58,165 bases of DNA, taken from Desulfobacterales bacterium (GTDB lineage: Bacteria > Desulfobacterota > UBA8473). Location of the stretch: contig JACQWO010000048.1 in assembly GCA_016209225.1 (NCBI GenBank), positions 66,027 to 124,191 on the forward strand, in the 5' to 3' direction. Position numbers and translations under genes: made by a program. Under the pieces are notes generated by a model that saw nothing but the letters and a program-made list of their open reading frames with translations, was not told the DNA's origin and ran no database searches. Shown here piece by piece: positions 6,520 through 39,699 of the stretch. Position 1 is the stretch's first letter; each line of letters begins with the position of its first letter.

Positions 6520-6534
6520 GTGTCGAGGAGGTCA

Positions 6535-8049: not shown

Positions 8050-8100
8050 GTAATTATGAAATACAGTCAGAAATCTTCAAGGTAAAGATGAAATGGTACC

Positions 8101-11906: not shown

Positions 11907-11913
11907 GGTCTTT

Positions 11914-22277: not shown

Positions 22278-22315
22278 CTTTGACTTCCCTATTAACGAAA
22301 TCGTATTGTCAAAAG

Positions 22316-22742
22316 AAACCACAGAGAACACAGAGTTTTTAAACTTAAAAATCTTTTTCTCTGTGTGCTCTGTGGTGAAATTCATTTTCTGTGGTTTCAT
22401 CCATTTTAACCAACTTTCTATTATTTGGAAAGAGATTAATATTAAATAGTATTTTGGGTCACTCATTAAGGGGTTTGTTCAAGAGAGCTGTTTAAGCTTG
22501 ACCCTCTCAACCTTTCGGTATATTATAATATAATCTAAACCCTGCGACTAACCACAGAGGACACAGAGGAGCATATTGACATTAAAAGAAAAAAACTTAA
22601 TTTGGCATTTTTCTCTGTGCACTCTTTGGATGAAAATCTTATGTTCTAAGTTTTGTATACTATAACTATGAGAACACAGAGAAGCATTTGAAAACATAGA
22701 GTTTTTTAAGAATTAAAATTATCTCTGTGAACTCTGTGGTTT
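22316..22742. repeat. Three hairpin repeats built on CCACAGAG...CTCTGTGG
   Basis: Copy 1: arms 22316-22335 and 22359-22376. Copy 2: 22549-22629. Copy 3: 22669-22742. Each has an arm like ACCACAGAGAACACAGAG and an inverted partner like CTCTGTGTGCTCTGTGGT around an AT-rich loop of about 25-50 nt. They resemble the dispersed hairpin repeats seen in many environmental genomes. Copy 1 lies just before phosphofructokinase and creates a spurious N-terminal extension of it. No transposase is attached. Confidence 0.75.
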
Positions 22743-23025: not shown

Positions 23026-24240
23026 TTGCATGCAGAGGATAAAAAAAGACCTGAAGACTTTATGGCTGAACTGGCTAAACTTACTGAAACGGCTGGTGGG
23101 GTAACAACAGACAGGATTATACAGGAAGTCAAACAAATAAACCCTGCCTATCTTATCGGCAAAGGTAAGGTGGAAGAGATAAAAAATCTTGTATCTCAAA
23201 GGGACGCTGATCTAGTTATCTTTGATGATGATTTAACGCCTGCGCAACAACGAAATTTAGAAGAAGAATTTGGTGTTAAGGTCATAGATAGGACTGGCTT
23301 AATATTAGACATATTTGCACAGAGAGCAAAATCGAAAGAAGGGAAGCTCCAGGTTCAACTGGCACAGCTTAACTATCTATTACCCCGTCTTGTAGGTTGG
23401 GGAGGGGTCCTTTCCCGACTAGGTGGTGGAATAGGGACAAGGGGTCCAGGAGAAACCAAATTAGAGGTTGATCGAAGAACAATCAGGGATAGAATTGTAA
23501 GGGCTAAAAAGGACATTGAAAAGGTAAGAAAGGTTAGAACCTTACATCGAAAAAGAAGAAGCCATATCTCTTGTTCTACGGTTTCCTTTATTGGATACAC
23601 CAATGCAGGAAAATCAACCCTTTTGAATTATCTTTCCAATGCCGGGGTCTTGGTAGGAGATAAATTATTTGCAACCCTGGATCCCACTATCAGAAAGATA
23701 AGACTGCCAGACAACAGAGAGATATTGATATCTGACACAGTGGGTTTCATCAATAAGCTCCCTCATCAGCTTATTGCTGCATTCAAGGCTACACTCGAAG
23801 AAATCAATGAGTCGGATATCCTTCTCCATGTAGTCGATATCAGCCATCCTCGAGTTGATGACCACATAACCTCAGTCAATACCGTTTTGAGAGAGATAGG
23901 GACATCTCAAAAACCCATTATCCATGCTTTGAACAAGATTGACAAACTTGATAACGTCAATAGCATTGTTAGATACTGGCAAAGGGAACTTGACAACTGT
24001 GTCGCTGTATCCGCGTTAACAGGACAGGGCATCAACGATCTCTTCAACAAGATTGAAGATTTGATACAAACCAGATTAAAGAAAGTGAAGCTTAAACTTC
24101 CCGTTGATGCAGGGGACATAATCTCTAAGATACACAGGAGCGGCAGGATAATCAGAGAAGAGTATACAGGGGAGGAAGTGATTATTGAAGCTGAGGTAGA
24201 CAACAAATTAGCCCATTCTCTGGAGGCTTTTAATTTTTGA
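23026..24240 (+). CDS. hflX: GTPase HflX
   Basis: Ribosome-associated GTPase that splits stalled or heat-damaged 70S ribosomes. The N-terminal HflX domain has [15 protein letters not shown] and [17 protein letters not shown]; the linker has [20 protein letters not shown]. The G domain has [12 protein letters not shown] (G1), [13 protein letters not shown] (G3), HALNKIDK (G4) and AVSALTGQG (G5). The first conventional start in frame is TTG 23026, but the family's first strand (KAILVGIKL) is encoded just upstream from 22984. ACG at 22984 lies 9 nt after AAGG (22971-22974), where [12 protein letters not shown] would begin if it were ATG. The real protein is therefore probably 14 residues longer, from a near-cognate or mutated start. 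Confidence 0.93.
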
Positions 24241-24563: not shown

Positions 24564-25391
24564 ATGAAAATAAAGGCAATCATCATGGTTAGCGTATCAT
24601 TATCTTTGCTACTCATCTTCTTTACTGCTGGAGGGTTGCTTGCGAGTAGTACAGATCAAGTTATTGAAACCATAGGTCAAGGTGAGGTTAACTGGACTAA
24701 GAATGTAATAAGGGCCACCGGAAGTGGAGCTCCGAATCCGTCTGCGCCCAATATAGCAGTTGCAAGGTTAGGGGCAGAAAGGGCTGCCAAGGTAGATGCC
24801 TTAAGAAACCTTCTTGAGACTGTTAAGGGTGTAAGGATTGATTCAGAAACCACGGTTGTAAATGCCATGACTCAAAGTGACGTAATACAAAGTAAGGTTG
24901 AAGGCTTTGTCCGGGGAGCCAGGGTAGTTGACAAAAAGTATCTTTCTGACGGTGGCGTGGAGGTTGTTATAGAAGTCCCCATTACCGGTTCCTTTGCTGA
25001 AGCTCTATTGCCTCCTGTGGGGGGGCAACCGGTGCCCTCTACCGGCAGTCCGGTATATACCGGACTGATTATTGATACAAAAGGTTTAGAACTTCGTCCT
25101 GCTATGTCCCCAAAGGTCGTTGATGAAGATGGAAGAGAGGTTTACGGTTCTGCCTATGTAACGAAGGAATTCGCTATCGAGCAGGGAATAGTGGGCTATG
25201 TGAAAGACACGGGAACAGCCAGACAAAATGACAGGGTAACAAATAACCCTATTATAATCAAAGGTATAAAAACTGAAGGACGGGGAAACAGTAACGTTGT
25301 TATCAAAAATTCTGATGCAAATATCCTGAGGGATACCTCTAAAAACCTCAGCTTTTTATCTCAATGTCGAGTGTTGTTTGTTGTCGATTGA
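24564..25391 (+). CDS. LPP20/FlgP-like exported protein
   Basis: 275 residues with a Sec signal peptide (residues 1 to about 27, ending LLASS) and no lipobox Cys. Residues 40-145 resemble the LPP20 domain: IRATGSGAPNP, AERAAKVDALRNLLETVKGV, SKVEGFVRGARVVDKKYLSDG and VEVVIEVPITG. LPP20 includes the Vibrio outer-membrane flagellar protein FlgP. The C-terminal part (TGLIIDTKGLELRPAMSPKV) is the conserved extension often found in such periplasmic proteins. The ribosome site AAGGAGG is excellent. First gene of the envelope cluster; presumably periplasmic or on the outer membrane's inner face. Confidence 0.75.
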   Translation: MKIKAIIMVSVSLSLLLIFFTAGGLLASSTDQVIETIGQGEVNWTKNVIRATGSGAPNPSAPNIAVARLGAERAAKVDALRNLLETVKGVRIDSETTVVNAMTQSDVIQSKVEGFVRGARVVDKKYLSDGGVEVVIEVPITGSFAEALLPPVGGQPVPSTGSPVYTGLIIDTKGLELRPAMSPKVVDEDGREVYGSAYVTKEFAIEQGIVGYVKDTGTARQNDRVTNNPIIIKGIKTEGRGNSNVVIKNSDANILRDTSKNLSFLSQCRVLFVVD

Positions 25392-25403
25392 ACACCAAAC
25401 CTA

Positions 25404-25449
25404 CAAGTTAAGTGCCTAAAGTGAGCTAAAGTTTAAAGTGCCTAAAGTT
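25404..25449 (+). repeat. 46-nt dispersed repeat, copy 1
   Basis: Contains two AAGTGCCTAAAGT units around GAGCTAAAGTTT. A second copy at 57342-57387 matches 45 of 46 positions, 32 kb away. Here it abuts another repeat at 25450. It has no coding capacity. Confidence 0.85.
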
Positions 25450-25612
25450 GATGGACTCGTAAAAAGTCAAAATTGGGATGGCAAAGTAAAAAGCTCCAGA
25501 TGCAAGGCGCGCAAATCCTGAGGAGTGAGGCGTACTTAGGGGTACGCCGCAACGACGAAGGATGCAGTGCAACGCCGCAGATGGACTTTTTACGACTTTT
25601 TACGAAGCCATC
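25450..25612. repeat. 163-nt palindromic element with GACTTTTTACGA ends
   Basis: The ends are near-inverse: GATGGACTCGTAAAAAGTC (25450-25468) and GACTTTTTACGAAGCCATC (25594-25612). The interior is GC-richer (GCAAGGCGCGCAAATCC; AACGCCGCAGATGG) than the flanks. It looks like a non-autonomous palindromic element of a type I associate with deltaproteobacterial genomes. It precedes the TPR-SLH gene and gives it a false N-terminal extension. Confidence 0.7.
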
Positions 25613-25676
25613 AAAGTTATTTAAAAAGGAAATTCCTATACTATTTTTAAATTTAATAACCAGTCGGAGGGGAAAG

Positions 25677-26852
25677 ATGAAGATAAAAAGGATACAGCCT
25701 ATAAATTGGATTTTTCCGTCTATTTTAATATTCTCCCTGCTTTTTCTTGGTGCATGTGCCCCCACGGCCAGGAAAGCGGCAAGTGCCCTGGATACCCCAG
25801 AGCATCATGTATTTAGTGGGATGAAGCTTCTGGAGAAAGAAAATTATGATGACGCTATACGTGAATTTAACCTGGCTATCCAGTTAGACCCAAAATTCTC
25901 TTCTGCTTATACAGGCATTGGCTTAGTAAACGGTTATAAAGGAAACTTTAAAGAGGCATTTGATAATGCCAAGAAGGGCCGGGAACTGGCCAAAACGAAT
26001 GATGATAAGGTCAACGCCCGGGTTGGCCTGATGAGAATTTACTCCATGGAAAGAAAAGGTGATTGGATTGATGAAGCGGAGAGCGCCTTTAAAGGTGCGA
26101 TTGCTATCGACCCTAAATCGTCGGCTGCTCATTACTATATGGGCGAAGCATATAAACTCTTCTATGATTTCGACAAAGCAGGAGAGATGTTTAAAAAAGT
26201 CCTGGATATAAATGATAAATATCTAATTGAAGCAAACAACCAGTGGAAGCTGGTTCAAAAGATTCAGAGGGCCGCACCTGGTAGTATTATAGGTAAAAAA
26301 ATAGCCTTGATAGACAAGATAAGCAGGGCAGATATTGCTGCATTGTTCGTTCAGGAACTACAATTAGAAAAGCTCTATGAAAAACGATCTCCTAAAAAAT
26401 TCGACACCGGTTTTAAAGCCCCGTCAACAGCCTTTGCAGCCGATCGTATTGAAAAGACCGAAGCTGCTACAGACATCTCTAACCATGTATTAAGGACAGA
26501 CATTCAAACCGTTTTGAATATTGGGGTAAAAGGATTGGAACCTTATCCCGACCATACCTATCGTCCCGATGATGTCATAACCAGGGCATCTTATGCTATA
26601 ATGGTTGAAGACATTCTAACAAAGGTTACTGGAGACGATAAACTTTCCACAAAATACATTGGCAACAAATCTCCCTTCCCCGATTTGAGGGGTGATCTTC
26701 CCTATTTTAATGCGGTAATGGTTGTAACCACCAGGGGGATCATGGAGGCCGTGGGTTTGACTACTGGTGAATTTGCCCCAATGAAGCCGGTTTCTGGGGC
26801 TGATGCTCTATTGATTATAAGAAAACTCAAGGATGAATTGAGGTTTTTCTAA
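25677..26852 (+). CDS. TPR and SLH-domain lipoprotein
   Basis: 391 residues. Lipoprotein signal with lipobox LGAC (Cys27). Residues about 40-200 contain TPRs (HHVFSGMKLLEKENYDDAIR, then FNLAIQLDPKFSSAYTGIGL; SAAHYYMGEAYKLFYDFDKA). The C-terminal 170 residues carry surface-layer-homology repeats (LRTDIQTVLNIGVKGLEPYP, DHTYRPDDVITRASYAIMVE, and SPFPDLRGDLPYFNAVMVV). SLH domains bind peptidoglycan-linked polymers, so an outer-membrane lipoprotein with SLH could tie the outer membrane to the wall. GGAGG at 25666-25670 fixes the ATG at 25677. Confidence 0.85.
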   Translation: MKIKRIQPINWIFPSILIFSLLFLGACAPTARKAASALDTPEHHVFSGMKLLEKENYDDAIREFNLAIQLDPKFSSAYTGIGLVNGYKGNFKEAFDNAKKGRELAKTNDDKVNARVGLMRIYSMERKGDWIDEAESAFKGAIAIDPKSSAAHYYMGEAYKLFYDFDKAGEMFKKVLDINDKYLIEANNQWKLVQKIQRAAPGSIIGKKIALIDKISRADIAALFVQELQLEKLYEKRSPKKFDTGFKAPSTAFAADRIEKTEAATDISNHVLRTDIQTVLNIGVKGLEPYPDHTYRPDDVITRASYAIMVEDILTKVTGDDKLSTKYIGNKSPFPDLRGDLPYFNAVMVVTTRGIMEAVGLTTGEFAPMKPVSGADALLIIRKLKDELRFF

Positions 26853-26889
26853 AAAGATATGTTCCCATATTATACGAGGAGAAAGTATC

Positions 26890-28086
26890 TTGGAGAGATT
26901 AACTAGGGTATTACTCTGTTTTGTAATTATCTTTGTGGTAGCCAAGTCTGTCCATGGAGAGCAACAACTTCAATCACAGGTTGTCAAGGCTGAGGGTGTT
27001 GGAGCCATTGTAAATAATGACAAAGCCATAGCCAGAGATAACGCCATTGAGGATGCCCTTAGAAAAGCGGTAGAACAAGCAGTGGGAACCCTTGTCTCCT
27101 CTGAAACCATGGTAGAGAACTTTCAGCTTCTAAGTGACCGTATTTATACTAAAACGGAAGGGTATATACAGAAATACAAAGTTATATCAGAATCTCCGGC
27201 AGAAAACATATACAAGGTTAACATAGAGGCAACGGTAGCTCTGGGCAATTTGAAGAATGACCTGGCTGCCGTAGGCCTTTTGATGGCAAGAAAGCACAAA
27301 CCAAGGATTATGATCATGATTGCTGAACAGAATATCGGTCAACAATACCTTAGCTTCTGGTGGGGACATCAGGCATCTGAAACAAACCTGTCGATTACCG
27401 AGAGCGTCTTGATTGAAAAATTGAGGGAGAAGGATTTCAATGTTGTTGACCATGAAGCTAAGGCAAGGAATATAAAGATAGGCAAGCCATACCAGGCAGC
27501 AAATCTGGACGATAATACCGCTGTCTCCCTTGGGAATCAGTACGATGCCGAGGTAGTAATAGTTGGCAAAGCATTGGCAAAACTTGTAGGAAGTGTCATG
27601 GGCACCTCTATGAAATCAGTCCAGGCAAATATGTCGGCACGGGCTATCCGTACTGATAACGGAGCAATTATTGCATCTGCAAATACTCATGGGGCGGCAG
27701 TTCACATAGATGAGGTTACCGGGGGCTCCGAGGCACTCAAAAAGGCATCCTCTGATTTGGCTTCTAAACTTATGGATCAGATCATAAACACATGGGGCAA
27801 GGAGGTTAGTGGAACTACAATGGTTCAGCTGAGCATAAACGGAATCTCCAGTTATCAGGATTTTCTGAAATTCAAAAACGTATTGCAAGAACAGGTTCGT
27901 GGCGTTAAAGGGGTTTACCAGCGGAGCATAAGCGCAGGAGTGGCCAAGATTGATCTAGATATAAATGGTGATTCCCAGTCTCTTGCTGATGAATTGACAA
28001 CTAAGAACTTCCCAGATTTTTCAATTAATATAAACTCTATGTCTCAGAATTCTCTTGAACTTACTATTTTACCTAAAAATCGATAG
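26890..28086 (+). CDS. FlgT N-domain-like exported protein (paralogue 1)
   Basis: 398 residues from a TTG with GAGGAG upstream. A signal peptide ends near KSVHGE. The N-terminal domain (VKAEGVGAIVNNDKAIARDN, AIEDALRKAVEQAVGTLVSS, RIYTKTEGYIQKYKVISE) matches the FlgT N-terminal/LPP20-like fold. A middle alpha/beta domain follows (RIMIMIAEQN; IEKLREKDFNVVDHEA; YDAEVVIVGKALA), typical of FlgT middle and CsgG/TolB-N-like folds. In Vibrio, FlgT builds the H-ring round the flagellar basal body. A paralogue is at 32178-33293. Whether these serve flagella or another envelope machine is open. Confidence 0.72.
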   Translation: MERLTRVLLCFVIIFVVAKSVHGEQQLQSQVVKAEGVGAIVNNDKAIARDNAIEDALRKAVEQAVGTLVSSETMVENFQLLSDRIYTKTEGYIQKYKVISESPAENIYKVNIEATVALGNLKNDLAAVGLLMARKHKPRIMIMIAEQNIGQQYLSFWWGHQASETNLSITESVLIEKLREKDFNVVDHEAKARNIKIGKPYQAANLDDNTAVSLGNQYDAEVVIVGKALAKLVGSVMGTSMKSVQANMSARAIRTDNGAIIASANTHGAAVHIDEVTGGSEALKKASSDLASKLMDQIINTWGKEVSGTTMVQLSINGISSYQDFLKFKNVLQEQVRGVKGVYQRSISAGVAKIDLDINGDSQSLADELTTKNFPDFSININSMSQNSLELTILPKNR

Positions 28087-28108
28087 TCTCTGTTTAAAGG
28101 AAATATAC

Positions 28109-28705
28109 TTGAAACATTTAAAACTTATCCTTATTGGGGTTACACTCATCTTTATCTCCAGTGCTTGTGTGCCTGGAATCCGTCATACCTTAGTTCCCGA
28201 CTATCAATCCAAGATTCCTACATCAGTTGCAGTATTACCTGTCCAAAATGAAACCGTAGACATGGATGCACCCCAGCTATTCAGGACAAAGCTCTTTAAT
28301 AGTATTTACTATAAAGGTTACGTATCCCCTCCCATTACTGAAATTGATTCAAAACTTGCTGAAAAGGATATAAGGGAGGCTGGTCAGCTTAATTCCATGA
28401 CCCCCCAGGAAATAGGAAAGCTCCTCAACGTTGATGCAGTGCTATATACTACAGTAACAGAGTGGAGTACTACTTACTTGGTGGCCTATGCTTCCGTAAA
28501 AGTAGGAGCCAAATTCAAGCTCGTAGATACCAAAACAGGGGAACAACTCTGGGAATCGGAACATGCGGTTGCCGAAAGGAGAGTTGGCCTTGATAGAGAC
28601 GAGCTAATAAAGAATGTAGCTTTTGCTGCTTTAAAGAGATATGATCCTTACGTCCAGAACGTCGTTAACACGGCATTTTCTACATTACCCAATGGACCCA
28701 AGTGA
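28109..28705 (+). CDS. GNA1162/DUF799-family lipoprotein
   Basis: 198 residues from TTG 28109, supported by AAAGGA at 28096-28101; an ATG at 28055 lies inside the previous gene and would disrupt the signal peptide. Lipobox SSAC (Cys20). The mature part has SVAVLPVQNETVDMDAPQLF, RTKLFNSIYYKGY, LNSMTPQEIGKLLNVDAVLY and AKFKLVDTKTGEQLWESEH, which fit the GNA1162 fold. Members are encoded with CsgG and DUF4810 lipoproteins in Neisseria and other Proteobacteria. The next gene is a CsgG lipoprotein, as in that set. Confidence 0.8.
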   Translation: MKHLKLILIGVTLIFISSACVPGIRHTLVPDYQSKIPTSVAVLPVQNETVDMDAPQLFRTKLFNSIYYKGYVSPPITEIDSKLAEKDIREAGQLNSMTPQEIGKLLNVDAVLYTTVTEWSTTYLVAYASVKVGAKFKLVDTKTGEQLWESEHAVAERRVGLDRDELIKNVAFAALKRYDPYVQNVVNTAFSTLPNGPK

Positions 28706-28757
28706 GTTCCGACTCTAAAGGGTGGGTGTTTCACCAAATTAAAATGAGGATTGACTA

Positions 28758-29702
28758 ATGTTAAATAAGAAAATGAGAACAGGTCTAATTACTACATTAT
28801 TTTTGTTCACTCTCGGCTGTGCCGGTATGCCCACGATGACAAGAGTTCCTCCTCCGGAAAAGCCAGTCGAAAAAAAAGCGCCTAAGATTGTCTCCAAAGG
28901 CCCCAAGAAGAGGGTAGGAATAGTGGATTTTGAGAACAAGACAACCTATGGGAAAGGAAGATTGGGATTCTCAGCATCAGACATCCTGACTACTGAACTC
29001 TTTAAAACAGGGGCATTTATCGTGGTTGAACGTGCTCAATTACAGAAAATCCTGGGAGAACAGGCTTTGGGTCAATCAGGTGTGATTAATCCTGCTACGG
29101 CTGCTGAGGCAGGTAAGATACTGGGGCTTAACGCTATCGTAACAGGCTCTATATCTCAATTTGGCGTCAAGACAGAGGGAAAGGATTACGGGGTATACAA
29201 ACAGAAGGTACAGAAGGCAGAGTGTACTGTGGATGTCAGGGTAGTGGATACCACAACTGGGCAAATACTATTTGCCGATTCTGGTTCTGGCGTCTTCGAA
29301 AAGAAGATCTCTGAGGTATTGGGGCTTGGACAGCGAGGCGGCTACGATGAAACGATGGGACAAAATGCATTAAGGGCTGCCATTACTAAATTTATGGATA
29401 ATCTTATCCAGCAGTTACAGTCAACAGAGTGGAGTGGAAGGATTGCTAAGGTGAGCGGTTCAACCGCATATATAAATGCAGGCAAGGATGTAGGATTAGA
29501 GATTGGGAATACTCTGAAGGTTTATTCACTTGGTGAAGAGATATTTGACCCCCAGACCCATGTCTTATTGGGCAGGGAAGAAGGCCCATTAAAGGCTGAA
29601 TTGCTTGTTACAGGCTATATTGATGCCAATCTAACCAAGGCTACTATCAAATCCGGCACAGGATTAACTGTCAATGATGTAGTTAAACTTAAATCACAAT
29701 AA
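28758..29702 (+). CDS. CsgG-family outer-membrane lipoprotein
   Basis: 314 residues. Lipobox TLGC (Cys21). The CsgG core reads RVGIVDFENKTTYG, SASDILTTELFKTGAFIVVE, RAQLQKILGEQALGQSG, AAEAGKILGLNAIVTGSISQ and VDVRVVDTTTGQILFADSG. CsgG in curli systems is a nonameric outer-membrane pore; related proteins (FlgO) decorate the flagellar outer-membrane region. From about residue 235 an additional beta domain follows (WSGRIAKVSGSTAYINAGKD; LEIGNTLKVYSLGEEI) like the FlgT C-terminal domain, absent from curli CsgG. Curli subunit genes (csgA/B) are not in the window. Confidence 0.85.
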   Translation: MLNKKMRTGLITTLFLFTLGCAGMPTMTRVPPPEKPVEKKAPKIVSKGPKKRVGIVDFENKTTYGKGRLGFSASDILTTELFKTGAFIVVERAQLQKILGEQALGQSGVINPATAAEAGKILGLNAIVTGSISQFGVKTEGKDYGVYKQKVQKAECTVDVRVVDTTTGQILFADSGSGVFEKKISEVLGLGQRGGYDETMGQNALRAAITKFMDNLIQQLQSTEWSGRIAKVSGSTAYINAGKDVGLEIGNTLKVYSLGEEIFDPQTHVLLGREEGPLKAELLVTGYIDANLTKATIKSGTGLTVNDVVKLKSQ

Positions 29703-29764
29703 TGGAAATAGGGTTTTGATATTTGGTATCGTTTAGTGTTTGTAATTCAACGTATAAGGAGTTT

Positions 29765-30088
29765 ATGATGAAGAACACTATACTGCTTTCTCTGCTTCTC
29801 ATTCTTGTCCTGACGGGGTGTGGTACCCCGAAGGAAGCCACTATAGGTGTAGGCAATGAAGGAGCGATAAAGATTGTCTGTAATCCTGGCGATGCAGAGG
29901 TTTTTATAGACGGGGCTTCAATGGGAGAGGCAAACAGGTATGATGGCAACCCTGGCTATATAAAGCTAAGCAGCGGGACCCACAAAGTAGAGATAAAGAA
30001 AGAGGGTTATGCTCCCTATAGCCGAGAAGTCTATTCTAGTAAGTCGCTTCAAACAATCGAGGTGACACTGAGAAAGTTGAATAGATAA
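29765..30088 (+). CDS. PEGA-domain lipoprotein
   Basis: 107 residues. Lipobox LTGC (Cys19). The mature part is one PEGA domain (IKIVCNPGDAEVFIDGASMG, then GYIKLSSGTHKVEIKKEGYA), a small surface-glycan or envelope-associated beta fold. ATGATG at 29765-29770 follows an AAGGAG-like site; the frame extends further upstream but without a signal peptide. In the middle of the lipoprotein cluster, spaced about 60 nt from the CsgG gene. Confidence 0.85.
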   Translation: MMKNTILLSLLLILVLTGCGTPKEATIGVGNEGAIKIVCNPGDAEVFIDGASMGEANRYDGNPGYIKLSSGTHKVEIKKEGYAPYSREVYSSKSLQTIEVTLRKLNR

Positions 30089-30121
30089 ATATAAACGAAA
30101 CTACTGTAAGAGAGATTATCT

Positions 30122-30877
30122 ATGAAAATATGTAAATCAACAATCTGTTTAATAGTACTGATTTTTTTACTTGCCTCCGTTTCCTTCTCCAAAGAAGTAA
30201 GCTCTCCCAAAGGCCAGGCTGTCGTTACCTTCCTCCAGGGGAAGGTCTGTGTTTTGCCAAAAGGGGAAGCAAAAGGGACACCCTTGAAGGTGCATGATAT
30301 CCTCCATAAAGAGGATAGAATAAATACAGGTGAAAAAGCCTTAATAGAGATAAAACTACCGGATGGAAGCTTTGTTCGATTCGCAGATAATACAAGCTTT
30401 ACGGTTAGTGACCTGAGCTATAACAGGGAAAGCGGGGATAAAAATTTTGGGGTTAAACTGTTTCTGGGAAAAACCTGGGCCAATGCCAAAGGATTCTTGG
30501 GAAGGGGGAAAAAATTTGAGATTTCCAGTGAAAATGCTGTAGCAGGGATTAAGGGTACTATCTATCGGATGGATGTCAGCAAAGACAAATCAGTGTTGCT
30601 TAGAGTCTATAGCGGGAACGTATATGTAACAAGTCCTCCAAAAGAGATTCCTAAGCCTGTCTTTGAAATTGGTGGGCCCAAGGAAGTTACGGGGCCCAAA
30701 GAGGTTCCTGGACCTCATGAAGTTACCTTGAAGGAGTGGGAACACATCGTAAAAGAAATGCAGCAGATTGTAATTACTCCTGACGGTAAGGCATTGAAAC
30801 CTGTTTCCTTCTCACCAAAAGAAGATATAAGTGATTGGGTTATGTGGAATAAGAAGAGAGATGAACTGATAAAATAA
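30122..30877 (+). CDS. FecR-domain exported protein
   Basis: 251 residues with a signal peptide (1 to about 23). The FecR domain is clear: VVTFLQGKVCVLPKGEAKGT, LKVHDILHKEDRINTGEKAL, IEIKLPDGSFVRFADNTSF and NAVAGIKGTIYRMDVS. Here it is a soluble periplasmic protein with no anti-sigma N-terminus or transmembrane helix before the domain, so a structural or ligand-binding role is likelier than sigma-factor control. A proline-rich linker with repeats (GPKEVTGPKEVPGPHEV) precedes the C-terminal tail. Confidence 0.85.
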   Translation: MKICKSTICLIVLIFLLASVSFSKEVSSPKGQAVVTFLQGKVCVLPKGEAKGTPLKVHDILHKEDRINTGEKALIEIKLPDGSFVRFADNTSFTVSDLSYNRESGDKNFGVKLFLGKTWANAKGFLGRGKKFEISSENAVAGIKGTIYRMDVSKDKSVLLRVYSGNVYVTSPPKEIPKPVFEIGGPKEVTGPKEVPGPHEVTLKEWEHIVKEMQQIVITPDGKALKPVSFSPKEDISDWVMWNKKRDELIK

Positions 30878-30878
30878 A

Positions 30879-31010
30879 AGGTTCATCTCCCAATTAGTTC
30901 TTTTGCCAAACCTTTAATTCTTTGTAATTTTTAAGCATTTCGCTCGAACCCTCGAACCCTTGACCCCTTGAATCCTTTTGTCATCTACCAACTCTTTGGG
31001 AGATGAACCT
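30879..31010. repeat. 15-bp perfect inverted repeat flanking a 102-nt spacer
   Basis: AGGTTCATCTCCCAA (30879-30893) and TTGGGAGATGAACCT (30996-31010). The spacer contains tandem CCCTTGA-like units. The right arm contains the first possible ATG (31003) of the next gene, so the arm rather than a true start may explain that codon. Confidence 0.7.
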
Positions 31011-31038
31011 CATTTATCTCTTGCCTTATGGTGATAAA

Positions 31039-32043
31039 ATGGTTAGTGCCATATTACTGGCCGGATACAACAACAAGCGGACAGTAAAAAAGTACAGCAG
31101 AATAGTTGCGGAACATTACGGCGAAAAGTTCATAGAAACAGAATACAAACCTTTAAGGGAATTTAAGATTGTTAAGGATGGACATGTAATAAACAAACCT
31201 GTGATTCAGTTTATACTTGAAAAGCTTTTTGACAGCGACTTGATTGATGAGATAGTCATTGTAGGTCACAAGATGCTTCTTGAACAACGTCTTAGTAAAT
31301 TTCTTAGGAAATTCGACAAGCCGTTCCGAATTGAAAACCAGAATTCTAAAATCCCTCATCACGCAATTGAGCGTTTTGGGGTAATACCTAAAAAGGTCAA
31401 ACATAATTCTTTCGCAGGGAACGTGATCAAAGGATACGCTGCTAGTGCTGCTTACAATGATAGGAAACATGCATTATTTGTTGCCTCGGATTCACCGCTG
31501 ACTACAAAGGAATTTATCGAAGACTTTCTTCATATCGCTCAAGATTACCAGCATGATTCCGCTGCAATCTTTCCTGCCGTACTTATTGAAGGAGATCAGG
31601 ACAAGCTGGGCAGAAGACCTCTCAAGCTTATTAATGACACAACTTATCAGGGCTCCAATATAAAAGATGAATCTGGCAGGCAGGGGTTCAGATTCTCACC
31701 CCTAGTATTTGCAAACCCAAATCTTATAAATGTGAATAACATAAACACCGCTTATAATCTTCGCAAATCGCTTAATCCAAAAGTTCAGATGGAATTATTC
31801 AGGATCACTCATAACCTGGGATATCCAAATGTATATACCAAATACTTCATTAGAAAGGATTTAAGTATAAAAGAATTTGAAAACATCATTTCACAGTTTT
31901 TCCATGGCAAATTTGCAATTATACCGACTATAGGAGAAGATTCAACCTATGATTATGACGGCACCGATGCAGAATATCGAGAGATAACAGCTATGCTGAA
32001 TAATACTCAGGCGGTGCCCCCTCATCCGTCAACAGACTCCTGA
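31039..32043 (+). CDS. MobA-like nucleotidyltransferase-fold protein
   Basis: 334 residues from ATG 31039 (an upstream ATG at 31003 lies in an inverted repeat). The N-terminus SAILLAGYNNKRTVKKY is the first strand and loop of an NTP-transferase GT-A fold, but the usual GGxGxR is changed to GYNNKR. Later strands read IDEIVIVGHKMLLEQRL, and a DSP motif occurs in HALFVASDSPLTTKEFIEDF, the metal-binding aspartate position. No signal peptide. Such proteins transfer nucleotidyl groups to sugars or cofactors; the substrate is unknown. It sits oddly between exported-protein genes on the same strand. Confidence 0.65.
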   Translation: MVSAILLAGYNNKRTVKKYSRIVAEHYGEKFIETEYKPLREFKIVKDGHVINKPVIQFILEKLFDSDLIDEIVIVGHKMLLEQRLSKFLRKFDKPFRIENQNSKIPHHAIERFGVIPKKVKHNSFAGNVIKGYAASAAYNDRKHALFVASDSPLTTKEFIEDFLHIAQDYQHDSAAIFPAVLIEGDQDKLGRRPLKLINDTTYQGSNIKDESGRQGFRFSPLVFANPNLINVNNINTAYNLRKSLNPKVQMELFRITHNLGYPNVYTKYFIRKDLSIKEFENIISQFFHGKFAIIPTIGEDSTYDYDGTDAEYREITAMLNNTQAVPPHPSTDS

Positions 32044-32070
32044 GTGTTTCCTTTAAAATAGGAAATTTGT

Positions 32071-32100
32071 TTGACTTTATACCATACATAATCATAGAAT
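32071..32100 (+). promoter_or_regulatory. Candidate sigma-70 promoter
   Basis: TTGACT (32071-32076), 18-nt spacer, TAGAAT (32095-32100). It lies about 70 nt before the second FlgT-N-like gene and may start a second transcript in the envelope cluster. Confidence 0.4.
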
Positions 32101-32177
32101 ATCCTAAATAATGCATATTGAGGTTGAGGTCACCAGAATCCTTCTAGAATGGGGGGGAAACCCCTATGGAGACAGTA

Positions 32178-33293
32178 ATGAAGAGAACGGTTTTTTTTAT
32201 TATTTTAATTGGTTTGGGGTTTATGTGCGGCACTGCCCCTGCTCAGGATAAGATTCTGGCAGAAGGTATGGCAGCCATTCATAGTAATTTAGTGGATATC
32301 GCCAGAGATAAGGCCATTGACAATGCCCAGCGCAATGCAGTAGAAAAAGTTGTGGGCGTTATGATTACGAGTAGTACAGAAGTCGAAAATTTTCAATTAA
32401 AACTCGATCGTATTCTTTCTGAATCCAGAGGTTTTATCAATACTTACAGGGTTATCTCGGAAAAGAGAGAGGGCGATATGTACAGGGTGACTATTGAAGC
32501 CGACGTTGGAAAGGGAAAGCTGAAGAAGCGCATGGAGGCTATCAATCTTATTATGATGAGAAAGTCCAAACCACGCCTGATGATTATTTTCGGTGGGCAA
32601 GCCCAAAAGGATGCAATTGCTGAGGCGGCCATGGCCAGATATTTTATGTCTAACGGATTTAAACTCGTTGATGCTGAAGTTGTCAGAAAAAACAGGAAGG
32701 ACGAACACCTCCAAACCCTTACCGGGGACCAGAAGATGTTGGCTAAGATGAGCCATCACTTCGGTGCAGAGGTCGTGATTATCGGCAGTGTTGATGCCGC
32801 AGTTAATTCCTTTACAGTGGCTGGTGTTGAAGTGAGTTCAAACAAGGTTACTGTTTCTGTTAAGGTGATGAATGGTGATACGGAAGAGATAATCTCGACG
32901 GACAGTGAAAGCAAGTCGGCACCGGGTATGAAGGGGGACTTTAAACTGATAACGGAAGAAGTAGTTGTAAAACTGGCCAAGAAAATGCTGGAGGAGACCC
33001 TGGATCGCTGGTCTTCTGAGTTAACAAATACAGTTACAGTCAAACTATTAGTGTCAGGTCTTGATTCCTACGAGGATTTAATGCGGTTCAAGAATCTTCT
33101 ATCCATGGCGGTAAAAGGGTTCAAAGAGATGTACCAGCGTTCTTATGTTCGGGGAAGGGTTGAGTTGGATCTGGAGATTAAGGGAAATACTCAGGGCTTA
33201 GCCGATGATATGGCGGCAATTACCGTGAATGGTGGGAAAGTTAAGATAGTAAAGATAACCCAAAACCAGATTGAAGCGATGTTCTTACACTGA
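32178..33293 (+). CDS. FlgT N-domain-like exported protein (paralogue 2)
   Basis: 371 residues from ATG 32178 (GGAG at 32168-32171; another ATG at 32166 is in frame). Signal peptide to about APAQ. The N-domain LAEGMAAIHSNLVDIARDKA, IDNAQRNAVEKVVGVMITSS and RILSESRGFINTYRVISEKR aligns residue for residue with paralogue 1, as do the middle segment KSKPRLMIIFGGQ and the C-terminal YEDLMRFKNLLSMAVKGFKE / YQRSYVRGRVELDLEIKGNT. Both proteins probably occupy related positions in one complex. Two such genes 4 kb apart suggest duplication inside the cluster. Confidence 0.74.
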   Translation: MKRTVFFIILIGLGFMCGTAPAQDKILAEGMAAIHSNLVDIARDKAIDNAQRNAVEKVVGVMITSSTEVENFQLKLDRILSESRGFINTYRVISEKREGDMYRVTIEADVGKGKLKKRMEAINLIMMRKSKPRLMIIFGGQAQKDAIAEAAMARYFMSNGFKLVDAEVVRKNRKDEHLQTLTGDQKMLAKMSHHFGAEVVIIGSVDAAVNSFTVAGVEVSSNKVTVSVKVMNGDTEEIISTDSESKSAPGMKGDFKLITEEVVVKLAKKMLEETLDRWSSELTNTVTVKLLVSGLDSYEDLMRFKNLLSMAVKGFKEMYQRSYVRGRVELDLEIKGNTQGLADDMAAITVNGGKVKIVKITQNQIEAMFLH

Positions 33294-33385
33294 GGGCAAT
33301 GTACCTATAAGCATTCGATAGATACAACCTATACTTAAGGCTGATCGCTTTGTCAAAAATTTTAAAATATTAAGGGAGGTATATA

Positions 33386-35374
33386 ATGATTAAGCCAAGA
33401 AATTATCCGATGATTCTAATCGCTTTATTTATCCTGATTCTTGTTTCTGCCTGTGTAGTAAGTGAGAGTTACAAGACTGGACAAGGATTGATTCAGGCAA
33501 ACCGATGGGAAGAAGCTATAGGTTTTTTTGAGCAGGCAGTGAAGGAAGACCCTAACAAGCAGGAGTACAGGGATGAACTGAACCGGGCAAAGCGGGAGGC
33601 AGCTAAGGTCCGTTATGAGAAGGCAAGACAGGTACTTGCTTCTGCTCCTGAGGCGAACCTCCATGTGCTCGAGCAGGTGGCGAAGGAAGCTGGCCTTGCC
33701 TATAACCTGGATCCTGAGAACAGTGCCATTAAGGCTTTCGACAGTGATATCAGAGGAAAGGTCAACGCCCTTACGAACAATCTTAAGTCGTTGTCCAGCC
33801 AGGCAGAAGTGGACATGCAAAAGGAGGATTGGATGACTGCCGTGGCAAAATTAAGACAGATCGTCAAGGTTTCTCCCACCTATGAGAATGCGGCCAATAG
33901 ACTCCTCAAAGCGGAGCAAGAAGGGACAAGAATGTTATATCAGCAGGGTCTTGCCTTCGGTAAACAGGAAGAATGGGGACTGGCAGTCCAGGCATTTAAG
34001 TCTGCTATGGATATCAATCCTAATTACCTGGATGTAGCCAAACTGTATAGGGATGCTATGTCAAGGGATAATGCTGATTATTACGTTAGTGAAGCTGAAA
34101 AGGCAAGGCAGGGACAGGACTGGGAGAGGGCTATCCGGCTGCTCGAAAAGGCCGGTAAATACCAGCCTGACAATCGTGATCTTGTGAAAAAGCTGGAGGA
34201 CATGAGAATACACGTCGGGCAGATATATTTCGAGGAAGCTGTCAGATTGGTCAATCAGGGCAAGTTCTATAAGGCGTTCAAAAGGTTAGAACTTGTCACT
34301 GCATCTTCACCTTCTCTATTAGATGGTCCTATTTACAGAGAATTTGTTAACAACTTTTGTGCAAAGCTGGTGGATAGGGCGGGGAAATTTTCTGGACGAG
34401 AGATGTGGGGTAATAGCTTGATCTGGTTGCAGAGAGCTGAGGCATTGAATCGTGATTACCAGGGGCTGTTTCAAAGGATTCTAGAGGTTAAAGACCAGAT
34501 TAACAAGCGTATTAAAAAGTCCATCGCGGTTTTTGATTTTAGCAGTCCCAGTAACGATAGAGACGCAGGTAAAATAGCGGCCAACAAACTGATTGCTTAC
34601 CTACATAGGAACGCCAGTGGTGATCTGCGTATCATCGAGCGTGAAAATCTGCAGTCTATTTTAAGGGAAATGCAGCTTGGACAAACCGGTCTTGTTGACA
34701 TCAAGGCGGTACAAACTGCAAAGATGAGAGGGATTGATACATTTATCATGGGTGACGTTCTTCACTTCGCGGCCACGAAAACAGATACCCCGAGTATCAG
34801 CCAGGTTAAAGCCCTCGTTGACGAAACAGATGAACCTAATCCTCAATTCTTATTGTGGAGTATGGCGAATCAAAGACCAACTCCAGAGCAGCTTAATTCC
34901 GCACCCCCTACTACGATTAAAAAGAAGATTTATCAATTCATTTCCTACAGGCAGGGAACGACAAAAATCAGCTCCATAATAGAGGTCTCCTATAAGCTTG
35001 TGGATACCCTTACAGGAGAGAATATTTTTACCAATACAATCGCGGGAAAGATGTTTAAGGAAGACAAGTACCAGGATGCCGTACCGGCTGCCGGTATCCC
35101 CTATGATCCGCTAGAGCTTCCGACAGAGGTAGAGGTAATGGATGAATTAACCAACGAGAAGGTGTCGGTGATGGGGCAGACTATCCTCAAGAATTTTCAG
35201 AGCCTTGAGGTTGAGTACTTTAACCAGGGTCAGCAATACCAGAAACGACGGAATCCGGAACTTTCCATTGAAAGATTTACAGATGCCATTTTTGATGAAA
35301 AATTAAAGGGCATATCCACTCCGATTTCCCAGAAGTCCATGGATATAATTGCTGAACTGGTTCAATATGAGTGA
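33386..35374 (+). CDS. TPR lipoprotein with CsgG-like C-terminal domain
   Basis: 662 residues. Lipobox VSAC (Cys23). Residues about 30-370 are TPR-like helical repeats (GQGLIQANRWEEAIGFFEQA; QGLAFGKQEEWGLAVQAFKS; GQDWERAIRLLEKAGKYQPD). From about residue 383 a CsgG/TolB-N-like domain follows: KKSIAVFDFSSPSNDRDAGK, LRIIERENLQSILREMQLGQ, RGIDTFIMGDVLHF and SYKLVDTLTGENIFTNTIAG. The fusion puts a pore-protein-like fold on a repeat scaffold anchored in the outer membrane. AAGGGAGG precedes the ATG at good spacing. Confidence 0.82.
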   Translation: MIKPRNYPMILIALFILILVSACVVSESYKTGQGLIQANRWEEAIGFFEQAVKEDPNKQEYRDELNRAKREAAKVRYEKARQVLASAPEANLHVLEQVAKEAGLAYNLDPENSAIKAFDSDIRGKVNALTNNLKSLSSQAEVDMQKEDWMTAVAKLRQIVKVSPTYENAANRLLKAEQEGTRMLYQQGLAFGKQEEWGLAVQAFKSAMDINPNYLDVAKLYRDAMSRDNADYYVSEAEKARQGQDWERAIRLLEKAGKYQPDNRDLVKKLEDMRIHVGQIYFEEAVRLVNQGKFYKAFKRLELVTASSPSLLDGPIYREFVNNFCAKLVDRAGKFSGREMWGNSLIWLQRAEALNRDYQGLFQRILEVKDQINKRIKKSIAVFDFSSPSNDRDAGKIAANKLIAYLHRNASGDLRIIERENLQSILREMQLGQTGLVDIKAVQTAKMRGIDTFIMGDVLHFAATKTDTPSISQVKALVDETDEPNPQFLLWSMANQRPTPEQLNSAPPTTIKKKIYQFISYRQGTTKISSIIEVSYKLVDTLTGENIFTNTIAGKMFKEDKYQDAVPAAGIPYDPLELPTEVEVMDELTNEKVSVMGQTILKNFQSLEVEYFNQGQQYQKRRNPELSIERFTDAIFDEKLKGISTPISQKSMDIIAELVQYE

Positions 35375-35408
35375 ACTGTAACCAAGATATTTGATTATGG
35401 AGGAGAGA

Positions 35409-37694
35409 ATGGGGAAAAGGTGTTGCTTGATTTTTGTGACGATAATGCTATGTTATCCAATCATTGTCTTAGCCAATACTCCCCTGCAAGCCAAGATTGC
35501 TGTTTTTAACTTCAGAACTGTAAATCTGGAGGCTTCAGGTTATGGTACATCGGTTGCCAATATGCTTATAGATTCTCTTAAAGAGAAAAGTGAACTGATC
35601 ATGATTGGCCGCAGGGATCTTGAGGCTTTTTTGAACCTCCATGATCTCCAGCAGGACGATAATCCGGCAAATGCGGTTAATATCGGTACACAACTGGGGG
35701 TTGACGTAATTGTTGTCGGCAACGTTGAAAAAAAAGGGGCTACAATTGTGGTCAACTGTAAGGTTATCCATGTCAAACAGAAGACGTCTATTTTTGATAC
35801 CCAGTTGGTATCCTTCGGTGATACGGCCATGGGGGGTGAAATTAAAAGGCTGAGTACCTTGATCAGCACAGCAATAGCAAATGCCGCTACCAAAAAAGTG
35901 AGTGAAGAAAAACCGACCTGGGGATGCCCCGTTAATATAAAGAAACGATCGAGTAGCAGTAGTATCTATTTGAACTGGGAAAATGCACCCGGCAACACTG
36001 CCGTCAGTTATGAGGTGTTTCGCAGTAATTCCGAATCCGGTCCTTTTACATGGATTTCCCAGGTTGTGCAACCTGAGTATCTTGATCGGAACTTAGAGAA
36101 GAATACCACTTATTATTATCAGGTCAGGGCATCTGCCGGTAGTGGTATTCGTAGTAATTTTTCCCCAGTTATTCTTGCCGAAACAGTTCCTGTTCCTAAT
36201 CCCCCTGTTATTTTGAAGGCAATAGGTCACATAAAGAGTGTTGAGTTGACATGGTCCCCCAGTCCAGCAAAGAGTGATGATCCCCTGGAATTGAAGGGAT
36301 ATAAACTCTATCGGGCCAAGGTAGAACAGGGTCCCTATAAAGAGGTGGCCAATATCCTCGGTCGGGATCTGGGCATTGGTGTGAATGTCACAACCACCCT
36401 CGACAAATTGCTTAAGGTGACCTATGTAGAACGGGGACTCACCGATGGGGAATACTATTGCTATAAATTGACGGCTTACAATGAAAAGAGTTTGGAAAGT
36501 GATTTTTCCGGCTCTGTTAAAGCCACAACCACATCCGTTGTCAGTGGTCTCTCCGCCCAGGGAATGATAAGGGAAGTTAATCTGACATGGGCTCCTGTTG
36601 ATTCTCCTTTCATCAAGGGATACTACATCTATCGAAGTGATGGAGAAAGCGGAAATTTTACTAAGATTAAGAAGATTGACGTTTCTGGCATTTCAGGTAC
36701 CGGTACAAGGGAGAAGGTGGAGTACACTGACAAGGAAGGACTTGGTGATAAACTCTCCTATTACTATCGAATTACTGCTTTTGAGGATGAAGAAAGAGAA
36801 ACGTCACCATCGGTAGCGGTATCAGCCGCAACAAAGGGTAAACCACCTGCTCCGGAGGCGGTAAAAGCTGTAAGTGGCATGGTAAAAAAGGTGGAACTTA
36901 CGTGGACGGCGGGTTCCCATGAAGACATAGAGGGTTACAAGATCTACTGGTCCAGAGAAAAGGTAGGTAAATATCTGTTGCTCTCAAAATTAAAGGAACG
37001 GACGACCAATAGGTTTACCCACGAGGGGGGAGGGGAAGAAAAGCTCGATGATAACACCACATATTATTACATAATCAGATCCTTCAACAGGGTGGATGTG
37101 GAGAGTGATTTTTCTGAGATAGCCTTTGCTACGACAAAGGCCAGGCCCACGAAACCCTCGGGACTTAAAGGAGAAGAAGGGAAGGTCAAGGCGGTGCCTC
37201 TTATCTGGCTACCAAATCCAGAAAACGATATCACCGCTTATCATATCTGGCGGGCTGGTCCTGAGAAGGAGGATTTTACCCGCATTGCAGATACTCGTGG
37301 TGAGACCGTGTACATTGATAAGGGTCTCAAGGATGGTTCTACCTATCGTTACCGTATCCAGACCGAAGACAGGGATGCGCTGCTAAGTGATTTTTCGGAA
37401 ACCATCGGTATCCAGACCAAGCCGAAACCGAAGCGCCTTGAGGGGTTTAACGGAGACCTACATAAGGGAAGGGTTGTACTCAACTGGAAACCGGGAAGCG
37501 AACCTGATATTTCGCATTATGATGTTTACGAGAAAGGATTTTTTGGTATAAAGAAAATTGCTACCGTTAAAACACCAGGGTTTACCGGGGAAAGTCTTCC
37601 GAAGGGGAAACAAAAAACATATGTCGTTATCTCTGTTGATAAGGGTGGTCTTGAGAGTGAGCCCAGTGAAGAAATAACCATCGTGAGGAAATAG
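35409..37694 (+). CDS. Exported FlgO/CsgG-like protein with about six fibronectin III repeats
   Basis: 761 residues from ATG 35409 (GGAGGAGAG at 35399-35407). Signal peptide to about VLA. Residues 25-165: a CsgG/FlgO-like domain (AKIAVFNFRTVNLEASGYGT; LIMIGRRDLEAFLNLHDL; LGVDVIVVGNVEKKG). Then about six fibronectin type III modules of 85-100 residues, each with a (V)xLxW start and a (T)YYYxxxA end: SIYLNWENAP, SVELTWSPSP, EVNLTWAPVD, KVELTWTAGS, AVPLIWLPNP, RVVLNWKPGS. FN3 arrays usually bind glycans or proteins, so this could be the outward-facing partner of the complex. Confidence 0.85.
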   Translation: MGKRCCLIFVTIMLCYPIIVLANTPLQAKIAVFNFRTVNLEASGYGTSVANMLIDSLKEKSELIMIGRRDLEAFLNLHDLQQDDNPANAVNIGTQLGVDVIVVGNVEKKGATIVVNCKVIHVKQKTSIFDTQLVSFGDTAMGGEIKRLSTLISTAIANAATKKVSEEKPTWGCPVNIKKRSSSSSIYLNWENAPGNTAVSYEVFRSNSESGPFTWISQVVQPEYLDRNLEKNTTYYYQVRASAGSGIRSNFSPVILAETVPVPNPPVILKAIGHIKSVELTWSPSPAKSDDPLELKGYKLYRAKVEQGPYKEVANILGRDLGIGVNVTTTLDKLLKVTYVERGLTDGEYYCYKLTAYNEKSLESDFSGSVKATTTSVVSGLSAQGMIREVNLTWAPVDSPFIKGYYIYRSDGESGNFTKIKKIDVSGISGTGTREKVEYTDKEGLGDKLSYYYRITAFEDEERETSPSVAVSAATKGKPPAPEAVKAVSGMVKKVELTWTAGSHEDIEGYKIYWSREKVGKYLLLSKLKERTTNRFTHEGGGEEKLDDNTTYYYIIRSFNRVDVESDFSEIAFATTKARPTKPSGLKGEEGKVKAVPLIWLPNPENDITAYHIWRAGPEKEDFTRIADTRGETVYIDKGLKDGSTYRYRIQTEDRDALLSDFSETIGIQTKPKPKRLEGFNGDLHKGRVVLNWKPGSEPDISHYDVYEKGFFGIKKIATVKTPGFTGESLPKGKQKTYVVISVDKGGLESEPSEEITIVRK

Positions 37695-37724
37695 AGGGAT
37701 GTCGTTTCCCACATGCGAACTTTA

Positions 37725-37855
37725 TTTTTAGTAACTACTCAGGCACAAAGTGGCAAAGGCACATAGGCACAAAGCAGAGCAAGGTCGTTTCGTTGTTTTT
37801 TCCTACTTTGTGCCGTTGGTGCTCTGTGCCTACCTGAATAGTTACTATTTTTAAA
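37725..37855. repeat. Inverted-repeat element with TAGTAACTA ends
   Basis: The left arm includes TTTTTAGTAACTACTCAGGC and the right arm GCCTACCTGAATAGTTACTA near 37828-37848. The interior has GGCACAAAG and inverse CTTTGTGCC units. Intergenic hairpin or MITE-like element between two genes of the envelope cluster. Confidence 0.65.
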
Positions 37856-37873
37856 ACTAAGGAGGTTTTCGTG

Positions 37874-38242
37874 ATGAGATATAGAGGGGTGCATATTCTA
37901 TTGATATCTCTTATGGTGGTTTTTCTCTGTACTGTATCCTTTGCCGCTGAAATTGGAACATATCAGATTGTTCCTGGCAAAGACGACAATGCCTACCTTG
38001 TTAATACAACGACGGGGGCCGTCTGGGTTCTTACCTATCGTACCCTTCCCACAGGACGGGAACCTGTTGCCATACCCTATAAATTTATAAAATTTTCGCC
38101 TCAGAATTATAAAAGCTTTCTTATTGAGGATATTCCAGGTGCTTTTATAAAATTATCACCCCATAATTATAAAGAATTTCTTAGTGATGATGCCCCTCCT
38201 ACTCCAGGGAAGGTCAAAGAACGTGTTGATGATGGAAAGTGA
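37874..38242 (+). CDS. Small exported protein with internal tandem repeat
   Basis: 122 residues; signal peptide ends SFAAE. AAGGAGG (37859-37865) serves the ATG at 37874 (a GTG lies one codon earlier). The mature protein has TTGAVWVLTYRTLPTGREPV and two consecutive 20-residue units, FIKFSPQNYKSFLIEDIPGA and FIKLSPHNYKEFLSDDAPP. I recognise no family. As the last gene of the lipoprotein run it may belong to the same machine, but this is only positional. Confidence 0.7.
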   Translation: MRYRGVHILLISLMVVFLCTVSFAAEIGTYQIVPGKDDNAYLVNTTTGAVWVLTYRTLPTGREPVAIPYKFIKFSPQNYKSFLIEDIPGAFIKLSPHNYKEFLSDDAPPTPGKVKERVDDGK

Positions 38243-38571: not shown

Positions 38572-39699
38572 ATGGATTACAATTTAACTGAGGAAGAACT
38601 GAATATTAGAAACACAATAAGACAATTTGCCAGGAAGGAGATTGCACCCTTTATCGACCAGATAGAGAAAGAAAAGAAGATACCCGAAGACCTTATACAG
38701 AAGATAATGGACATGAAGATAACCGGCTTGCCATTTCCGGAAAAATGGGGTGGATCCGGAGCTTCCTTTACAAGCCTTCTTTTAGCTATCGAGGAGATGT
38801 CTTATGTATATCTCCCATGCATGTTTTACGCGGTTGTGTCTGCCATGACAGCGTATGGATTTCTGAATTACGCCAGTGATTACCTGAAGGAGAAATATCT
38901 TAAAGGGCTGTTGACAGGTTCATTAAAGGGCGCCTGGGCATTTACTGAACCAGAGACCGGATCTGACCCAAAACAGCTGAAGGCAAAGGCAGTCAAAGAT
39001 GGAGATGGTTGGATTCTTAACGGAACGAAGAGATTTATAACCAATTCGAGCATTGCCGACATAGCAGTTATGTTTGCCTTGACGGAAAAAGGAGTAACCG
39101 CCTTTGTTGTAGAAACACAAAACCCAGGATATATAGTAGGGAAGAGAGAAGAGTTTCTCGCTTTTGGTGGCACAGACAACGGTGATATTATTTTGGAAGA
39201 TGCCAGAGTAGAAGGTGAAAACATCCTGGGGGAGGAAGGCCAAGGCTTCAATATATTACTGGGGGTGGAAGTCTTCGCCAAGGTGGTATCCTGTGCGGGG
39301 AATGTGGGGCTGGCCCAAGCAGCATTGGATTATGCAGTGAAGTACGCAAAAGAAAAGACCCACAGGGGTGTTCCAATTGGTTTAAAGTTTCAAATGACCC
39401 AGTGGAATCTGGCTACTATGGCATCAAAAGTTGTTGCCAGTCGTGCTTTTCTTTATTCTGTGGGTGCAAAGATGGACAAAGGGGAAAATGTCTTTGCTGA
39501 ATCGGCGCTCCTTAAAATATTCACCGGTGCTGCTGCAAGGGAAGTGGCCTCTGATGCGGTTCAGGTTCACGGCGCCTATGGTCTATCTAAAGAATACGCA
39601 ATTGAAAGGATATACAGAGAGTCTAAGTTTAACGAGGTAGTACTGGGAACCAGTGAGCTTCAAAGAGTCATAGCAGCAAATGCATTAATGAAAAGCTAA
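38572..39699 (+). CDS. Acyl-CoA dehydrogenase family flavoprotein, atypical active site
   Basis: 375 residues with the three ACAD domains: helical N-domain (LTEEELNIRNTIRQFARKEI), FAD/substrate middle domain (AWAFTEPETGSDPKQLKAKA; DGWILNGTKRFITNSSIADI) and helical C-domain (GNVGLAQAALDYAVKYAKEK, VQVHGAYGLSKEYAIERIYR). The end is VVLGTSELQRVIAANALM, where most ACADs have EGTSxxQR. Leu358 stands where the catalytic Glu should be, and no Glu occupies the alternative isovaleryl-CoA-dehydrogenase position. The reaction may differ from ordinary alpha,beta-oxidation. AGGAGAGG precedes the ATG. Monocistronic as far as can be seen. Confidence 0.9.
   Translation: MDYNLTEEELNIRNTIRQFARKEIAPFIDQIEKEKKIPEDLIQKIMDMKITGLPFPEKWGGSGASFTSLLLAIEEMSYVYLPCMFYAVVSAMTAYGFLNYASDYLKEKYLKGLLTGSLKGAWAFTEPETGSDPKQLKAKAVKDGDGWILNGTKRFITNSSIADIAVMFALTEKGVTAFVVETQNPGYIVGKREEFLAFGGTDNGDIILEDARVEGENILGEEGQGFNILLGVEVFAKVVSCAGNVGLAQAALDYAVKYAKEKTHRGVPIGLKFQMTQWNLATMASKVVASRAFLYSVGAKMDKGENVFAESALLKIFTGAAAREVASDAVQVHGAYGLSKEYAIERIYRESKFNEVVLGTSELQRVIAANALMKS

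Follow-up and report, generated by a model that had tools for sequence, protein, structure and literature searches.

The genes described here lie on the plus strand of the window (the whole stretch of 58,165 nucleotides of Desulfobacterales DNA that was analysed), at positions 24564-38242, with hflX (23026-24240) on one side and an acyl-CoA dehydrogenase gene (38572-39699) on the other. The run is made up of twelve open reading frames (ORFs), which encode 11 exported proteins and one cytoplasmic nucleotidyltransferase-like protein:

p1, 24564-25391 (+): LPP20 protein (FlgP-like SHS2 domain) with a second domain as in Treponema Tp0624 and a signal peptide; Pfam LPP20 3.3e-7
p2, 25671-26852 (+): TPR lipoprotein with a C-terminal SLH domain, start codon set by the lipobox position; Pfam TPR_2 7e-12, SLH 1.7e-7 (a single SLH repeat above threshold)
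p3, 26890-28086 (+): FlgT_N protein with a CsgG/TolB-like middle region, distantly related to LipL46; Pfam FlgT_N 1.7e-10, NCBIfam LipL46 1.9e-21 (below the equivalog cut-off)
p4, 28055-28705 (+): GNA1162-like lipoprotein, start uncertain; Pfam GNA1162-like 6.2e-22
p5, 28758-29702 (+): CsgG-fold lipoprotein with a C-terminal FlgT_C-like domain; Pfam CsgG 8e-34
p6, 29765-30088 (+): small PEGA lipoprotein, lipobox LTGC; Pfam PEGA 1.6e-9
p7, 30122-30877 (+): exported FecR-domain protein; Pfam FecR 7.2e-12
p8, 31003-32043 (+): cytoplasmic nucleotidyltransferase-like protein, between the two modules described below; Pfam NTP_transf_3 0.0028 (below cut-off)
p9, 32166-33293 (+): second FlgT_N protein, opening the second module; Pfam FlgT_N 2e-9
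p10, 33386-35374 (+): TPR lipoprotein with a CsgG domain; Pfam TPR and CsgG 1.8e-7
p11, 35397-37694 (+): exported CsgG domain followed by an FN3 array; Pfam fn3 5.2e-21
p12, 37874-38242 (+): small exported protein, matching no family in Pfam or NCBIfam

Profile searches bore out most of the families named in the first-pass annotation. Above the curated Pfam cut-offs are LPP20 in p1, TPR and SLH in p2, GNA1162 in p4, CsgG in p5 and, together with TPR, in p10, PEGA in p6, FecR in p7 and FN3 in p11. FlgT_N is found in both p3 and p9, which fall into separate supported clades. The nucleotidyltransferase match in p8 is present, at a score below the Pfam cut-off (18.3 versus 27). Three CsgG-fold proteins had been claimed and three are there: p5 and p10 by Pfam, and p10 and p11 by hhalign to the p5 family (5.3e-17 and 6.8e-12, respectively), the CsgG domain of p11 scoring under the Pfam cut-off (17.1 versus 20.8 bits). 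The count of ten exported proteins and one cytoplasmic one was right for the latter (p8) and one short for the former. Likewise, to call the run one of lipoprotein genes is correct for five of the products only: with N-termini read by eye, a lipobox is seen in p2, p4, p5, p6, and p10, and ordinary signal peptides without one in p1, p3, p7, p9, p11, and p12. The listed ORF starts are too early or uncertain for p2, p4, p6, p11, and p12. A promoter and terminator scan of the run gave counts close to those of shuffled sequence. Two features elsewhere in the window are worth recording. On the minus strand, two adjacent ORFs (21108-21800 and 21831-22466) match the phosphofructokinase profile of 277 positions, the former over 126-276 and the latter over 2-111, which looks like a single gene split by a frameshift or stop. 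On the plus strand, 5562-5939 and 5976-6395 are successive pieces of a UDP-glucose/GDP-mannose dehydrogenase, an intact copy of which adjoins at 3427-4785; the pieces are a probable broken duplicate.

Two conserved modules within the run emerged from homology searches and from clustering of gene neighbourhoods. Module A contains the LPP20, TPR-SLH, FlgT_N, GNA1162, and CsgG genes, to which PEGA and FecR are often added. Module B contains the FlgT_N, TPR-CsgG, and CsgG-FN3 genes, sometimes with p12, an orthologue of which occupies the equivalent place in three loci (L040, L077, and L078); it also recurs apart from module A, and sometimes adjoins it. The two are joined in the window and its counterparts L040 and L077, in L118, and in L127. 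Among the relatives' loci examined, p8 was matched solely in L040 and L077, that is, within the genus, and it probably stands outside the complex discussed below. In the 90 loci collected, FlgT_N is present in 83, LPP20 in 61, CsgG in 52, GNA1162 in 51, and TPR-SLH in 46; as these loci were mostly fetched via the FlgT_N protein, the first count is biased and the others are not. The five core families are found together on one strand in 32 of the 90, in several gene orders, and many of the other loci are cut by contig ends. Module A extends over Desulfobacterota, Nitrospinota, Nitrospirota, and KSB1, with smaller sets in records named Zixibacteria, Methylomirabilota, and Neomarinimicrobiota. 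The order LPP20-SLH-FlgT_N-GNA-CsgG characterizes the window's family and Syntrophaceae-like genomes, FlgT_N-GNA-CsgG-SLH-LPP20 a large deltaproteobacterial clade, and FlgT_N-GNA-CsgG-LPP20-SLH the Nitrospinota. Because the same families lie side by side in such divergent relatives, their clustering is more than chance; the run first noticed in a single genome is both real and well conserved. Some relatives are reduced to FlgT_N, GNA1162, and CsgG, or to even less, so the complex may have fewer members than the run has genes. A search of the open-access literature (subscription journals not covered) found no description of the gene set. The same families are arranged differently in five Nitrospirota loci (L131-L134 and L136), where three consecutive LPP20 genes are followed by a FlgT_N gene.

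The relationships to LPP20/FlgP, FlgT, and CsgG that had been proposed are genuine, as judged by profile and structure comparisons. The p1 family profile matches FlgP in entry 9hmf (2.4e-16), which we take to be the Campylobacter protein although the entry title is merely "Lipoprotein, putative," as well as FlgP of the LPHT ring (8z5n_2, 4.5e-13). It also matches Treponema pallidum Tp0624 (5jir, 2.7e-15) over profile positions 35-272, spanning both domains; the two-domain N-terminal part is identical in kind, and p1 differs in having no C-terminal OmpA-like domain. The p3 profile reaches FlgP at 6.5e-6, and the N-domains of p1 and p3 match each other (hhalign 2.4e-10). Ring formation in the FlgP family is reported to be linked to an insert that follows the SHS2 helix and precedes the second strand, and that FlgT has as well (PMC12222027). 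With the insert defined in this way, the p1 profile and FlgP can be aligned over 90 residues, insert included, with hardly a gap, and the p3 N-domain aligns near-gaplessly to Campylobacter jejuni FlgP through the same segment. Like the FlgP basal disk and the FapH ring of Campylobacter and Helicobacter, p1 carries an SHS2 domain with the segment reported to form rings; contrary to these proteins, it has a second domain, is not a lipoprotein, and has no obligate flagellar link.

Structural models extend this likeness to FlgT. The AlphaFold2 model of p3 (pLDDT 78.8, pTM 0.50) has FlgT chains as its best PDB matches (8z5n_0 at 3.6e-11 and another at 1.1e-10); whole-chain TM scores are low, so the similarity holds domain by domain. 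Its ring-forming segment is modelled as helices, with modest confidence, instead of a hairpin, which together with the pTM counts against a ring. The p5 model (pLDDT 76.3, pTM 0.67) also finds FlgT 8z5n_0 as its best match (5.1e-19, TMq 0.65, 288 columns), with CsgG far behind (2e-8). This fits the extra FlgT-C-like domain that had been assigned to p5, for which Pfam gives a weak hint (E 0.053). No homology between the middle region of p3 and p5 was detected by hhalign, their likeness coming from structure alone. The N, middle, and C domains of FlgT are thus not in one chain here: the first is in p3, and domains of the middle and C types are in p5. Compared with the Vibrio H-ring and LPHT ring (FlgT 3w1e and 8z5n, FlgP, and FlgO), the run encodes the same kinds of exported domains, with FlgP in p1, FlgT N in p3, and FlgT middle and C in p5, the last by structure. 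It differs in that the FlgT domains are split over two proteins, in the additional GNA1162, TPR-SLH, PEGA, FecR, and FN3 proteins, and in its occurrence in bacteria without a flagellum. Two other relatives are found among lipoproteins. Both p3 and p9 match the profile of Leptospira LipL46 over most of its length, although far below the equivalog cut-off (76 versus 400 bits) and, for p3, without a lipobox. On the other side, p4 belongs to the GNA1162 family, and the structure of p5 comes near those of GNA1162 and PelC, these relatives being here part of a larger conserved set, with no PelB-type porin recognised alongside.

The best explanation of these data, to which we give a probability of about one half, is that the products of the run make up a ring or scaffold at the outer membrane that is not flagellar but is built from the domain types of the flagellar H-ring and basal disk. 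The domain content, the conserved clustering, and the persistence of the genes in genomes without flagella are shown by the data, whereas ring formation, and with it the multi-ring complex proposed in the first-pass annotation, is inferred, as are the contacts between the proteins, wall binding, and the function. In such an assembly a single ring or several would be made by the FlgP-like p1, by p3 with its domains of the FlgT N and middle types, by p5 with those of the middle and C types, and by p4. Lipid anchors on p4 and p5 would keep the rings in place beneath the outer membrane. In the genus of the window, where modules A and B are joined, p9, p10, and p11 of module B would add another layer, in which TPR and FN3 parts serve as connectors. 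The connection from the module A rings to the cell wall would be made by p2, the TPR-SLH lipoprotein. An SLH wall tether had already been read from the sequence, and the SLH domain of p2 does stand; its region is moderately conserved among 46 homologues, and the signal is modest, a six-frame SLH scan of the genome giving no match at E 0.001, p2 included. The usual SLH ligand is a pyruvylated wall polymer, whose pathway includes a pyruvyltransferase of family PF04230. No match to this family was found in the genome, and anchoring of the canonical kind was therefore rejected. A tethering role for p2 is plausible.

Could the ring instead be an accessory to an export pore, such as a secretin, a type IV pilus, or a polysaccharide exporter, whose cargo genes lie elsewhere? 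Models for such an arrangement exist in PelC, which sits under PelB, and in TsaP, which surrounds the pilus secretin. The p3 and p5 models do match PelC dodecamers, that of p3 also PelBC, and the p5 C-terminus matches LysM-domain chains, one of them named TsaP. Against this, the families that recur next to the modules include no recognised secretin, PelB-like porin, or polysaccharide synthase, and the one resembling an outer-membrane barrel (family F6, see below) is short, with about 250 residues. We regard this reading as rather unlikely.

A place around the flagellum had also been considered, the run then encoding an accessory of the H-ring or basal-disk kind, like FlgO, FlgP, and FlgT in Vibrio or FlgP in Campylobacter. 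Besides the domain homology to FlgP and FlgT, the setting speaks for it: the window comes from a flagellated genome (hits to Flg_bb_rod, flagellin, FlhA, and FliF), it contains FliD, FliS, FliT, and FliK itself, and about 30 kb separate the run from the cluster of flagellar genes. That cluster (L060-L062), however, contains no FlgP-, FlgT-, or CsgG-like gene at E 1e-4, and the recurrent neighbour families of the modules are not flagellar. What decides the matter is the distribution of the modules. Seven near-complete genomes that carry them, or adjacent module hits, have no flagellin, FlhA, or FliF (G039, G019, G090, G152, G220, G135, and G182). The first of these belongs to the same genus as the window's genome, is about 100% complete, and has all twelve genes (locus L040). 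The structure is thus not obligately flagellar, and a necessary function around the flagellum was rejected. Across 297 genomes of the phylum there is no positive association either: flagellin is missing in 31 of the 62 with a p3 match of at least about 100 bits, versus 80 of the 235 others (Fisher odds ratio 0.52, p 0.027, uncorrected for kinship), and FlhA shows nearly the same split. A flagellar accessory is accordingly improbable as the general explanation; in flagellated hosts a secondary flagellar role may exist. A few kb past the FliD, FliS, and FliT genes, TPR-glycosyltransferase genes (6520-13695, plus strand) possibly serve flagellin glycosylation.

A CsgG-type secretion channel, in which p5, p10, or p11 would form its own outer-membrane pore, is hardly more credible. 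The CsgG fold is shared by all three proteins with the curli transporter, and the p5 model retains long strands where the transmembrane hairpins would lie. However, p11 has lost the first hairpin and p10 has a long insertion there (both by hhalign to the p5 family). In p5 this hairpin falls short of its CsgG counterpart by about 6 residues, and across its family it is 17-43% charged, most members having charges on both faces and no clearly hydrophobic one, and a few relatives looking more CsgG-like. The export pore suggested in the first-pass annotation is not supported for p11, and for p5 the hairpins point both ways. The absence of curli components, noted at the same time, was confirmed for the accessory genes: neither CsgE nor CsgF was detected in the genome by a search that was positive for its E. 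coli control, and a curli system was rejected. Finally, several independent envelope proteins held together by operon inheritance, with no single complex, would account for the common partial sets and the differing gene orders, but this is very unlikely given that across phyla these families come together in one order or another and that modules A and B adjoin in more than one lineage.

For the non-flagellar ring or scaffold, the most likely job would be to stabilise the outer membrane or to maintain its lipids or LPS, as an assembly of its own and not as a flagellar bushing. Several observations point this way. In one large clade LPP20 is followed by F6, often then by MlaE, an ABC ATPase, and MlaD; F6 proteins end in a C-terminal Phe and in some members give a weak outer-membrane barrel match. 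This neighbourhood is mainly confined to that one clade, plus L068, and is absent around the window's own run. Elsewhere in the window's genome, leuS and lptE flank two genes (L159:4581-9046, G000:C8), one for a GNA1162/beta-helix protein and one for an LPP20 protein; the order leuS-GNA1162-LPP20 is found also in G039 (L161). A third LPP20 gene of the window's genome has heptosyltransferase-like and LPG-synthase-like genes as neighbours. In Tp0624 the two-domain part seen in p1 is fused to an OmpA-like domain, and envelope stabilisation has been proposed by its authors (PMC5104382). The FapH ring of Helicobacter, whose gene is a neighbour of flgP, reportedly has a protective effect on the outer-membrane barrier (PMC11756786). 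Each item is weak alone; taken together they favour a supporting role at the outer membrane.

The modules could represent an undescribed nanomachine of the outer membrane, present in several phyla, and rings of the FlgP, FlgT, and CsgG types would be non-flagellar relatives, perhaps even the source, of the H-ring and basal disk; we advance this broader view only tentatively, as a possibility. The origin of the extra rings in high-torque flagellar motors is an open question, and a set that holds all FlgP and FlgT domain types and is conserved in bacteria without a flagellum offers a candidate related or ancestral assembly, which makes that origin testable. For GNA1162, LPP20, and LipL46-type proteins the set would also offer a first setting in which to place their function; several of them have, to our knowledge, been studied as surface antigens without a known role. 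The GNA1162 domain recurs near the modules in yet another form: a large exported family combining it with beta-helix and TPR parts (F23) lies beside them in seven loci (e.g., L102:331-2820).
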